Positions 26,301-32,300 of a stretch of DNA of 64,000 bases are shown here, piece after piece (the first letter of the stretch is position 1; each line of letters begins with the position of its first letter). The stretch comes from Hyperoodon ampullatus (taxonomy: Eukaryota > Chordata > Mammalia > Artiodactyla > Ziphiidae), in NCBI GenBank assembly GCA_949752795.1, contig OX457057.1:4516632-4580631 (forward strand). The letters run 5' to 3'. Made by a program: the position numbers and the translations under genes. The notes beneath the pieces were generated by a model that saw only the letters and a program-made list of their open reading frames with translations, was not told where the DNA came from and ran no database searches.

Positions 26301-29300
26301 GTGTGTGGGGGGAAGGGGGCCGGCTGGCTTCTGGCATCCAGGGTCCCGAGTCTATAGCCATGGAAGCCCCAGGTGACTCAGTCCAAGGGTCACTGGGGTT
26401 TGCTGGTGCAGAGAGATGGCCAGAGGGAGGCTCCACCCTGGCGGGGCCGGGCCAGGGAAGCCGGGACAAAGGTCGGGTGGCTGGCCCCAGGCAGCGTTCT
26501 GGAGCTGGGCAGTGGGTGCGCTAGGCGGAGATATTCGCTAGAGGTCCCAGGGCCGGCCCAGGAGCCATCATGAACTCCCGGGGGCCACCAGGCGGGGGCT
26601 CCACACCCCGTGAGTAGGGTCGGGAGGATGGAGGGGCCGCGCGGGCTGCCAGCTGAGGACCCGCCTCTGGGGTCCCAGAGAGCTGCCTGTGGGACCTGGG
26701 ACCTGGAGAGCTGCCCTCTGAGCCCAAGGGAAGGCCCCGGCCTGCGCTGACTTGGGGAAGGGGGCAGCAGAGGGCAGGTAGGGGGCGGCAGGGACGCGGG
26801 CCTCACACCAGGCCAGCGTCTCCTCTCCTGCCTCCGCGCAGGCACCAAGTCTTTCAACATGATGTCCCCGACGGGCGACAACTCAGAGCTACTGGCTGAG
26901 ATCAAGGCGGGCAAGAGTCTGAAGCCGACGCCGCAGAGCAAGGGGCTGACCACGGTGTTCTCGGGCAGTGGGCAGCCGGCCTCCCAGGTAGGCGATGCGA
27001 CAGACGCCCCAGCCCCTCGACCCCGCCCACCCGGCACTCAGCCCCGCCGCTTCTCCCCGCAGCCCGACTCGCCGCTGCCGCCGGCCTCGCCGGCACCGTC
27101 ACGGGCCCGGAGCCCCACCCCGCCGGCCGCGGGGTCCCAGCCACTGCTCAACGGCAGCGTGGCGCCGGCGCCGCCTGCCACCCCTGCGCCGGGCGTGCCG
27201 CTCGACGTGGAGGCGCTCATCCCCACGCACGACGAGCAGGGCCGGCCCATCCCCGAGTGGAAGCGCCAGGTGATGGTGCGCAAGCTGCAGCTGAAGATGC
27301 AGGAGGAGGAGGAACAGAGGCGGAAGGTGGGCGGGGTTGGGCTTCCCAGAGGGCCCTGGGGTCCGCACCTGGGTCCACAGCCCATGCCCCACATCATCCC
27401 CCGATCTGCCCGGGACCTCTCAGCCTCAGACGGCTCCCATTACCTTTGGGAAAAAGCACGATTGGACCACCACCCCTCTCCTGGGAAGGTTCCCAGTCTC
27501 CACCGCCAGCACCACCCCCCAACAGCCTGTCCTTTAATGCGATGGCAGTGTTTATCAAAGTCTAAGGTGCCCTCAAATCGCCCGTGATCTTATTAAAATG
27601 CTTTTTCTGATTCAGGTGCTCTGGGTGGGGATGGGATTCTGCGCTTCTGACAAGCTCCCGGGTGAGGTTGACTCATCCAAGGGACCGCATGAGTAACCAA
27701 GAGGCTTTTGGTCGTAGTCAGAGTGGCCTGGGCTCTCTCCCTGAACTACCACTTTCCACTGATATTGAGCCTCGTCTAGCCTCAGGTTTCTCATCTGTCG
27801 GATGGGTTGATCATCCCTGGCTGGCAGGATAGTCTGCCATTGATCTGCTCAACAGACATCCCCCCGGCGCCGTCTATGTGTTACACACTGTTGGTGTTGC
27901 CTCTGGGGATTCACGGGTGAATATGTCAGTGCAGGGCGGGGGGGCGTGTCAACCAACAAGCAAGCACAGCACCTTAGTCGAGTGATAAGTGCCCCCAAGG
28001 AGACAAAACAGGGCAATGTGGGAGAGTGAGCAAGTGGGGAGGTGCTCTGATGGGGAGGGCAGAGGACTGGGGCAGCCCTAAACCGACCATCCTGTTTGGG
28101 TTTGGGGTGGTGGTAGGGGAGGAGAAAGTGATGTCTCAGGTAGACTTGGAAGATGAGGAAGAAGTGGACGGGGAGAAAAGAGGGTCAAAGAGCGAGCAGG
28201 AAGGACCGGGGAGGTCTGACAGAGTGGGTGTGGTAGCTCCAAGACGGTACCACTGAAGGGGGTGGAGTCAAGACGTCAGGAGTGGCCAGATCACTAAGGC
28301 CTGGCCTTGAAGACAGTGGACTTTCTCCTGGAGTAGCGGGGAGCCTGGGAGTGGGGTTAAGCGGAGAAGTTGGCATCGTCATATTTGTATTTGGGAAACA
28401 TCTTTGTGTGGGGGGCTGTGGTGGGCCAGGATGAACTGGGAGGCCTGTGAGGAGGTGACGGCAGCCCCCCCACCACCACCTGGGCTGGAAAAACCTAAAA
28501 TGAGGAACAGATGAGACTGTAAGTGCCTGGCAAGCCTAGCTCTGTAAGTTGTATTATTCTTCCAGGAGTCAGAGAGGGTGGGAAGAGGGGTGAAAGCCAC
28601 AGCTTCAGCCACTTTAAGGGCCTCTCATTCAGCAGTAAAACTGACAGCATGGACAGGGAGGTCTTGGGCCACAGGGGAGTTTGATTAGGGGTCATCTGTC
28701 TGGGGTGAGGGGCGGCCTCGCTGGGATCTGGCCTCGAAATCGCAGACCTTGGATGGGGAGGGAGAGGGCTGCCGTCTGTCGCAGCTTCAACGCCTTTTGC
28801 ATGTTCCTTTGGTGGTGTAATGAGCGACCAAGCCAGGTGTGGAGACCCCATCTGCCGGCCCTGCCTCTGCAACAGCGCCCAACGACCGGCTGTGTCCCCG
28901 CCAGCGACCAGAGTGGACACTGCCCAGCGCCTGGAGCGGCGGCCTGGGCTGAAGCCTCATCCCAGTGTAATGCCCGCCGGCCAGGCGCGGCCCGTCCCTG
29001 CAAACGCAGCCCCGCGGAGCCATTACACCACCCGGGACATGCAAAAGGCGCCCCCGGCGGCCGCTGCGGGAGCCGGGCCAGAGGGAGACGCGCCTCCCTC
29101 CCCTCTCTTGTCTTCCCCGCCTTAGCTGACGGCCGCCAGCTCGTGCTGCTACCCCCGCGAGGGCTGGAGGTACTCCCGCGAGTACAACGGCATCCTCGGG
29201 CCCTTCGGCGAGCTCATGACCGAGGCCGACATCCTCCGCATCGAGCAGCAAATCGAGAACCTGCAAGTGTTGCACAAGGCGCAGAAGCTGGAGGCGCGCC

Positions 29301-32300
29301 TGGAGCAACTGGAGTTGGAGCTGGAGCAGCTGCTGCCCATCTCGGCCGCCCTGTCGGCGCCGCGCTTCACCGTCGACCCGCGCCGCATGCACGGCCGCGC
29401 CGCCAGCCTGCCTGCCTGGTGCAGCAAGATCTCCACGCTGCTCAAGAGCATGGCCACGCTGCTGGCCGCGCTGGGCGGACGGCCCGCGCACCTGGCCGAG
29501 CTACTTGCCGCCGACACAGGCCAGCCGCTGCCGCCGCTGACCGACGCCCCCTGGCGGCCGGGCCCGCTCTGCTTGGGCCGCTCGCATTCGCTCAGCTGGT
29601 GCCGCGAGGCCGTGGCGCGCGAGATCCTCGAGTGCGGCGTCTCGGTGCGGCACCTCCGCGCCACCTACGAGCGGCGCGCCCAGGGCTCGGCGGCCGCGTG
29701 CGGCCCGCCCCGAAAGCTCTCGCTGCCCGCAGGCGCCCCGCGCCGCGAGCCCATCCTCGAGGAGGACTACGTGGCGGCCGGCACCGGCGAGCCAAGCGCC
29801 GCCGCCGCCAACGGCCTGCCGGCCGCAGGGGAGCCCCTGGGCGTCCTGGGCCCGCCCGAGGCGCCAGGCCGCCAGGCGGCGCTGCCCGAGCCCGAGCAGT
29901 TGGCGCGCAGGCCGCCACCCTCCACCGAGCTGCGAGGCGTCCAGGACTACATCGACATGCGCAAGGAGCGCATCGCCTACCTTTTCCTGGAGCACTGGCG
30001 CAAGTGGACCTTCCGCGGCCCCGGGCGCCACGCCCAGGTGCGCCTGCGCAGGCTGCTGCCCCGCGTGGTGGCCGCCGGCGCCGATCCCGGCCCGGAGGCA
30101 GCCGACGCTTCCCAGCCGCCGGCGGACGATGGCCCGGACGAGCGGCTGCTGCGCCTGCTGAAGCAGCGGCAGGTGGTGGGCAAGCTGCTGGGCCACTGGC
30201 GGAGCCTGCTGCGGCAGGTGCCGGCGCGCCAGCCTCGCGGCCTGAGCCTGGCACACGGCTTATACTGGCCCGAGCACTTCTTGCCGCCCCTCGACGGCGG
30301 CGCACCCCGGCGATACGACAGCCTCACGCTCGACCTCTTCATGCTCGGCTACTTCCAGCTGCTCGAAATGGGCCTGAGTCGCGAGGAGCGCAAGTTTCGC
30401 CACCTGCTGTGCTACGAGATGTTCGACCGGCTGGGCAGCCACCCGTGGGAGCTCATCCGCCTCTTCCACCGCGTGGTACTCGAGGAGGTGGAGGCCGGCC
30501 GGCGCGGCTGGAGTGACGGCTTCGAGGACCTCAGGCGCCAGTTCTTCGGAGACACCCCGGAGGCTGAGCCGGCCCGGGAAGAAGAGGTGGAGAAAGAGCA
30601 AAAGGAAGGGACAGATAAGGAAGAGAGGGAGCCGACCGAAGAGGCCGCTCCAGCTCAGACGGGCGACTGGCCAGAAGGGCAGCCAGAGGCGCCGGCCCCT
30701 GCGCCGCAGCCCCCGCCCCCGCCAGCCGCGCCTCCCCCGACGTCGGACCCTTCTAGCTCCGAAGCCCCCGCCGAAGAACCCCTGGAGCTGGTATCTGAGA
30801 TGGGCGAGTTCAGCAATGAGGACATCTGCCGGTACATCGACCGCAGCTTCTCCTTCTGGAAGGAGAAGGAGGCAGAGCTTTTTGACATCTGAGCGGCAGA
30901 ATTCGGAATTTACCCTCGAGCGTCTTAACCCGGGCCTGGATGCCTGTCTGATGCCCTCCAGAGGTCAGAATACGGCAGGAAGAAACCAGGACAGGACGAG
31001 TGGCCTTGGAAAAGCCAGAGTGCCCAGAACCAGGCTGCCTCAGCCTTTGAGATCCCACGGTGGCCGGTTGTGGGGTGTTGGCCGGAATGGGCAGGGCACG
31101 GCACAGAGCCAACCAGGTGTCCCCCTCTGGCTCTCCAGCGACGCCTGGCTCCGTGTGGAGCCAGGTGGAAGCAGCAGCCCCTCTGAGTGCGGGACTGTGG
31201 GTCCCCCTTGGGGCAGTGTGGCTCTCTTTCTTTCTTTGGTTTTTCACTGGAGTTCATAGCTACCTCTTTGGCTGAGGTCCAGGGAGCCACATGTGCAGTG
31301 TTCGTGTGACGTGTCCAGACCGTTTCTCCTCTGTAACATGCAAGTAATAAAACACTTTGCCGTAAGCTGCCTGTGTTGGATGCCCCCACCCCCATGTCAT
31401 TGCAGCCACACGATTGTAGAGCTAGCAGGCATGGAACAGAAGGTCCTTCACAGTGGAACCAGGGACTGGCCTGAGCCTCTCTGAGCAGGCAGGATCTGTG
31501 AAGGCCCAAGTATGAGTCTGCCCAGAGATTCTGGGCCAGGGGCCTGGAGCCGTCTATCCACCCCCCACCTGCGCCCCACCTTGGGGAGTCTCCCCCTCTG
31601 CTCCTCTCCTCCTCTGCTCCTCTCCTACGCCTCCTACACTCAGCTCTGACCTCTCTGGCGCCGCCTCTGGGACACGGGGGCCTGAGTCTTCATCCATTTG
31701 CCCTATAAAAGGGCATCAAAAGAGTCTCTTCCTGCGACCCCATCTGTGTCCCGTTGTCCCTGACTCATGCAGCTCCCCTGGGTGGGGGAACACCCCCGCT
31801 GACCCCCGTGTCCCAGCCCATTGCTGGCCCTGAAGCCTTCCTTGTGCTGTGTTTCAGGAGAAGGAGGAGGAGGCCTGGCTGGCCAGCATGCCGGCCTGGA
31901 GGCGGGACATCCTGCGGAAGAAGCTAGAAGAGGAGAGGTGAGCTGAGGAAGCTGCGGGGCTTGGCAGGGTGTCTTGATCGTGTCCCTGAGGTGGTGGCAC
32001 CAACTAACACCATCTCTTTTCTTCCAGGGAGCAGAAGCGGTGAGTGTGGGGCTGGGCCCAACCTGTGTCCCCTCCCCCCACCCAGTCACAGTGCCTTTGC
32101 CCCTTCCTCCAGCCCCCGTCTTGAGTGCATCCCCTTGTCACTCGGCCCTGTTAGCACAGTGTCTTTGCTCCCAGTAATGCCACAGACCCCTCTCCCCCAG
32201 GAACTTACCCACTGCACCTCAAAGTCTTGCTCCCTGTCCCCAGTTACCCAGCCCCCATCTCCCGTTAACCTAGCCTTTCTGCCTTGCAGTTAACCCCACC

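Follow-up and report, generated by a model that had tools for sequence, protein, structure and literature searches.

Espin is an actin-bundling protein of hearing cells. Its isoforms differ at the N terminus according to start site and have a common C terminus (PMC3953818, PMC10046292), which is formed by the actin-bundling module (PMC3953818, PMC10046292, PMC6493769). An earlier note on the DNA analysed here had started from the same premise, which passages of four published papers state. The related protein espin-like (ESPNL) has been described, as a whole protein, to bind actin without crosslinking it and to be transported by myosin-III, and a 27-residue actin-binding region is common to espins and ESPNL (PMC4773517). 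We analysed a window of 64,000 nucleotides from Hyperoodon ampullatus (assembly GCA_949752795.1, contig OX457057.1, positions 4,516,632 to 4,580,631 of the forward strand), which contains the espin gene ESPN and, in the intron between its exons 10 and 11, a long open frame that we call exon 10b (Table 1). Exon 10b is very probably a genuine alternative last exon of ESPN that selection has maintained and that has its paralog in the last exon of ESPNL, and a message in which exon 10 (27326) is joined to 29126 would encode a product with an ESPNL-type C-terminal domain (CTD). Like the known espin isoforms this product would come from the same gene and use the same exons up to exon 10; unlike them it would differ at the C terminus. 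No espin with a CTD ending was described in the excerpts of open-access full text among the matches listed. Exon 10b is new relative to the papers searched, and may possibly have been annotated before in a database.

Homology of exon 10b to the last exon of ESPNL

A genome-wide search with the exon 10b frame (2.83 Gb, all 54 candidates scored, E ≤ 0.001) returned the frame itself and a single other locus, on contig C8, matched in two pieces with 45% and 51% identity. This locus is ESPNL, as its ankyrin exons are 50-65% identical to those of ESPN and a 25-residue stretch in the exon upstream of the CTD exon is 76% identical, and the match is to its last exon. The common stretch is encoded by exon 10 in ESPN; with the following RK it comprises 27 residues, and we take it, by our own identification, to be the actin-binding region of PMC4773517. 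When the two CTD exons were compared directly, the ESPNL last exon (538 codons) aligned with exon 10b residues 14-588 (tblastn E 4e-85, 36.5% identity) and the Smith-Waterman score was 816, the highest of 200 shuffles being 88. Identical residues number 226 of the 498 aligned, and 53 of 80 in the CTD core. One 16-residue block is identical at all 16 positions, the five codons that differ being all synonymous, and a terminal FWKEKEAE block is present in both proteins.

The gene structures agree as well. In both genes a phase-0 intron joins the exon with the shared actin-binding stretch to the CTD exon, and it lies at the same residue, 14 after VMVRK and 13 before WRYS. Given the sequence match together with this common intron position, exon 10b is homologous, nearly end to end, to the ESPNL last exon. 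By this comparison ESPN still carries the exon that forms the ending of ESPNL; the CTD is the ending of ESPNL, whereas ESPN would have it as one of two.

Mouse ESPNL offered another comparison, since four of its published peptides (PMC4773517) fall in order within the exon 10b frame. Peptides 868-880 and 882-901 score above all 1000 shuffles, peptide 814-828 is reached by 2 of 1000, and the spacing of these three in the frame is the same to the residue as in ESPNL. The resemblance to the C-terminal half of ESPNL, which the earlier note had pointed out, is thus borne out both by the mouse peptides and by tblastn within the same genome. No Pfam family or PDB chain matched the frame up to E 1, so the CTD has no curated name in these collections, and, as one would expect of an exon from a vertebrate, no relatives turned up in collections of prokaryotes, viruses and phages. 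AlphaFold2 models were poor, with a mean predicted local distance difference test score of 44.7 for the full frame and 49.7 for residues 336-490. Three Rfam matches near exon 10b, far under the gathering scores, were taken as chance.

Signals, coding character and alternative readings of the frame

All the signals of an alternative last exon are found ahead of exon 11: an acceptor, coding sequence in phase, a stop codon and a poly(A) signal. Exon 10b is read in phase 0, the phase left by exon 10 before the donor GTGGGC. The 588-codon frame, the phase match, the stop and the AATAAA were all present as the earlier note had said, with a candidate 3' untranslated region (UTR) that we position between the last two. 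Its claim of a strong acceptor was slightly generous: the CCTTAG acceptor is present, and it scores 3.0, rank 9 of the 344 AGs in the intron, by an approximate matrix. The same matrix gives 3.0 for the ESPNL last exon, 1.9 for ESPN exon 10 and 4.9 for exon 11. The first in-frame methionine of exon 10b is residue 31 and falls inside the GPFGELMTE block, so that the exon needs an upstream exon.

The composition of the frame is that of coding sequence. Its codon score is -0.133 per codon, the highest of the six frames; the runner-up, minus-strand frame 0, has -0.300, and a 623-codon frame that overlaps exon 10b (28645-30516) has -0.517. G+C at codon positions 1/2/3 is 0.74/0.51/0.89, near the values of ESPN exon 1 (0.82/0.52/0.93) and exon 10 (0.78/0.56/0.93) and less so those of exon 6 (0.53/0.57/0.82) and exon 13 (0.61/0.29/0.88), in a comparison of seven ESPN exons of which exon 4 was read out of frame. 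The observed/expected ratio of CpG dinucleotides is 0.94 in exon 10b versus 0.35-0.57 in its flanks; it is 0.91 in ESPN exon 1, 0.93 in exon 10 and up to 0.70 in the ESPNL CTD.

In order to assess selection, we compared the CTD exons of ESPN and ESPNL, which differ at 647 of 1494 aligned bases (43%) with both frames open. In simulations of neutral drift of the ESPN frame, which model substitutions alone, 30 to 57 of 300 frames stayed open at 5% change (without and with faster CpG change, respectively), 1 of 300 without and 13 of 300 with it at 10%, and none of 300 at 20%. An open frame despite a paralog divergence of 43% argues for selection on exon 10b. The ratio of nonsynonymous to synonymous substitution rates (dN/dS), a check that the earlier note had suggested, could be computed between the paralogs (CTD 0.64, CTD core 0.48, ankyrin exon 1 0.74); being an average over both branches and distorted by 89% third-position G+C, it is weakly informative and says no more than that constraint on the CTD is not below that on a known functional exon.

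Several observations speak against a maintained last exon of ESPN or soften the case for it. The acceptor is ordinary, with eight other AGs of the intron scoring above it, and the CpG richness of the exon could also mark a promoter, though ESPN exons 1 and 10 are as rich. The differences between the paralogs are spread over codon positions 1, 2 and 3 as 199, 202 and 246, a mild skew, and the third position is not the most changed in 3 of the 7 blocks counted. The fourth mouse peptide, 748-763, is not significant alone (74 of 1000 shuffles equal it) and scores higher elsewhere in the six frames of the window. To these are added the limits of dN/dS given above and the bundling C terminus that the described isoforms have in common.

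Since the G+C content of the stretch is 72% and the overlapping frame runs even longer, for 623 codons, frame length alone is a weak argument for coding, and a chance open frame in GC-rich DNA might seem to suffice. Yet among 2000 first-order Markov simulations none stayed free of stops for 588 codons, whether frame 1 or all three frames were considered, and the homology to ESPNL already refutes this explanation, to which we give practically no credence. Homology leaves room for a relic, that is, an ancestral ESPN ending that is now dead and has not yet decayed in this lineage, in keeping with the espin literature examined, whose excerpts give the bundling-module ending only. Against a relic stand 588 stop-free codons at deep paralog divergence, where few drifting frames survive even 5 or 10% change, and the intact acceptor, stop and poly(A) signal; we consider it improbable, with a very recent death of the exon as the variant that these data would still allow.

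The CpG-rich exon body, together with the fact that espin isoforms arise from different start sites (PMC3953818), would also suit a separate small gene or an internally started transcript, outside the espin messages. The conserved part, however, starts 13 residues past the splice site and 17 before the first in-frame methionine, in ESPNL the homologous exon sits behind the same upstream exon, with the intron at an identical place, and a short espin begun ahead of exon 10 would remain an espin product, so that a separate gene is hardly likely either. Even less probable is that the ESPNL last exon was copied into ESPN at a later time, by duplication or conversion, instead of being an ancestral ending there. 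With only two copies in the genome the direction of copying is open, but the intron position is the same to the residue and in the same phase, and an identity of 36.5% points to great age. Over its last 425 bases, the ESPN intron has nothing in common with that of ESPNL: when 28701-29126 was compared by blastn with 60 kb of ESPNL locus sequence, a single 18-base match came up, not near the CTD exon. An alternative last exon of ESPN is the reading we retain.

Predicted product and ancestry of the two endings

The steps from transcription and splicing to the protein and its function we infer from the sequence. The single donor of exon 10 could be spliced to either of two exons. Joined to exon 11 (31858), it would lead to the bundling module; joined from 27326 to 29126, to the CTD, with early polyadenylation near 31370. 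The N-terminal parts would be kept according to start site, namely the ankyrin repeats in espin 1, the proline-rich parts, the WH2 domain and the shared actin-binding stretch of exon 10. Exons 11-13 together encode exactly 79 residues, the number that the earlier note expected to be lost, and the 10b product would have, in place of these (most of the C-terminal bundling module), a CTD of 588 residues, which is the architecture of ESPNL. As its bundling module would be replaced over these 79 residues, the product would fall outside the espin isoforms as now described: derived from ESPN, it would not be an espin with a bundling module. The choice of last exon would switch espin from a crosslinker to an ESPNL-like regulator, and because of this ESPNL-like make-up and of the behaviour described for ESPNL (PMC4773517), the 10b espin is expected to be non-bundling and carried by myosin-III.

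Within the canonical tail, a similar W-centred motif occurs in ESPN exons 10, 11 and 13 (27252-27284, 31891-31923 and 33238-33270). The two further motifs of the bundling tail, picked by eye like the first, reach ungapped BLOSUM scores of 36 and 29 against the exon 10 motif, compared with a maximum of 13 in 734 comparisons. The bundling module looks as if it were made of three copies of one actin-binding motif, of which ESPNL shows one; an espin with the CTD ending would keep only the exon 10 copy, as in ESPNL.

Upstream of the 10b acceptor, the intron can form a long stem that might be a splicing-control structure. It is near-perfect (29 pairs, one of them G-U, and one small internal loop) and ends 75 bases before the acceptor. 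For this segment, picked by eye, the z-score was -4.87 and none of 100 shuffles was as stable, while by duplex energy the best stem window ranks only about 155th of 6360 in this GC-rich region. The stem could control the use of exon 10b, or it may be no more than a chance pairing or the remains of a repeat.

A published data set from human neural retina gives a lead on such a transcript. The most abundant ESPN isoform listed there is a novel one of 6,326 nucleotides (TRANSCRIPT3910.CHR1.NIC; relative abundance 1.00, 565 full-length PacBio reads; PMC11450717, Table 3), with the features "extra intron, exon elongation, alternative poly(A) site"; its splice junctions are all classed as known, and section 3.6 does not discuss it further. 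The alternative poly(A) site is what a 10b ending would bring, whereas the extra intron, the exon elongation and the restriction to known junctions are unlike it. To equate the two is a lead only, which would require the 10b junction to be present in GENCODE v39; otherwise the retina isoform is something else.

The earlier note had also suggested that the ancestral espin gene had both endings. An ancestor with both is the simplest reading, since the CTD exon stands at an identical intron position and phase in the two mammalian paralogs, which makes the suggestion a well-founded inference. Judging from this one genome alone, ESPN could alternatively have acquired exons 11-13 at a later time. 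Remnants of exons 11 and 13 were sought in 60 kb around ESPNL and none was found (no match better than E 0.06), so the CTD is the ending of ESPNL. The missing remnants give no direct support to a dual-ending ancestor; had ESPNL lost exons 11-13, the time since then would have erased every sign of them. In zebrafish there is a single espin locus, whose exons 11-13 encode the bundling module (PMC6493769), the fly Forked proteins are described as 35-39% identical to espins (PMC10046292), and the actin motif of ESPNL has been dated to jawed vertebrates (PMC13364712). A tentative scenario, possible but rather doubtful as a whole, is that ESPN of jawed vertebrates has always been dual-ended, the choice of last exon deciding between bundling espins and non-bundling espins that are myosin-III cargo. 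Some tissue, for example the retina, may have the latter as its main espin; ESPNL would be a duplicate with the CTD ending only, and the stem in intron 10 may help to set the choice.

Espin biology rests on all isoforms sharing the bundling C terminus, and a maintained second ending, if true, would add non-bundling, ESPNL-like proteins to it and would explain the origin of ESPNL by the loss of one ending. It would also mean about 1.8 kb of extra coding sequence, missed by variant screens of known exons, in a deafness gene (PMC3953818) that is also listed among retinal-disease genes (PMC11450717). Likewise, mutants aimed at exons 11-13 need not remove espins with the CTD ending.

Gene context of exon 10b in the window

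The ankyrin, WH2 and bundling-module exons of ESPN flank exon 10b in order and on one strand, which identifies the host gene as espin (Table 1). The exons were mapped by tblastn with a human ESPN query, and exons 11-13 were read out directly.

Table 1. Features of the ESPN locus (positions in the window)
Feature	Position	Strand	Basis or remark
ESPN exon 1	2057..2350	+	holds the start codon and the first ankyrin repeats; tblastn with human ESPN
Other ESPN exons, limits approximate	~5439, 16620, 16939, 17265, 19824, 20988, 23958, 26850	+	tblastn with human ESPN; ankyrin exons near 5439, 16620, 16939 and 17265, WH2 exon near 26850
ESPN exon 10	27063..27326	+	phase 0 end; donor GTGGGC would serve both endings
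Long stem, possible splicing-control structure	28791..29050	+	arms 28791-28822 and 29021-29050
3' splice site CCTTAG of exon 10b	29120..29125	+	pyrimidine-rich tract upstream; AG-free 36 bases between 29087 and 29124
Exon 10b, candidate alternative last exon of ESPN	29126..30892	+	588 codons and TGA (30890-30892); open frame, tblastn to ESPNL last exon, coding statistics
Candidate 3' UTR of the 10b ending	30893..31370	+	placed between TGA and poly(A) signal; 3' limit approximate
AATAAA, candidate poly(A) signal of exon 10b	31346..31351	+	GT-rich stretch downstream
Canonical exon 11	31858..31937	+	phase-0 acceptor; alternative partner of exon 10
Canonical micro-exon 12	32028..32039	+	12 bases
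Canonical exon 13	33144..33291	+	with stop

Elsewhere in the window, two inverted pairs resemble repeat elements (11993-12205/12240-12452 and 13721-13762/13978-14019). The head of a tRNA-derived short interspersed element of whales and other even-toed ungulates has 7 matches in the window versus 0.02 expected, a number that by itself makes a genome of that group probable.

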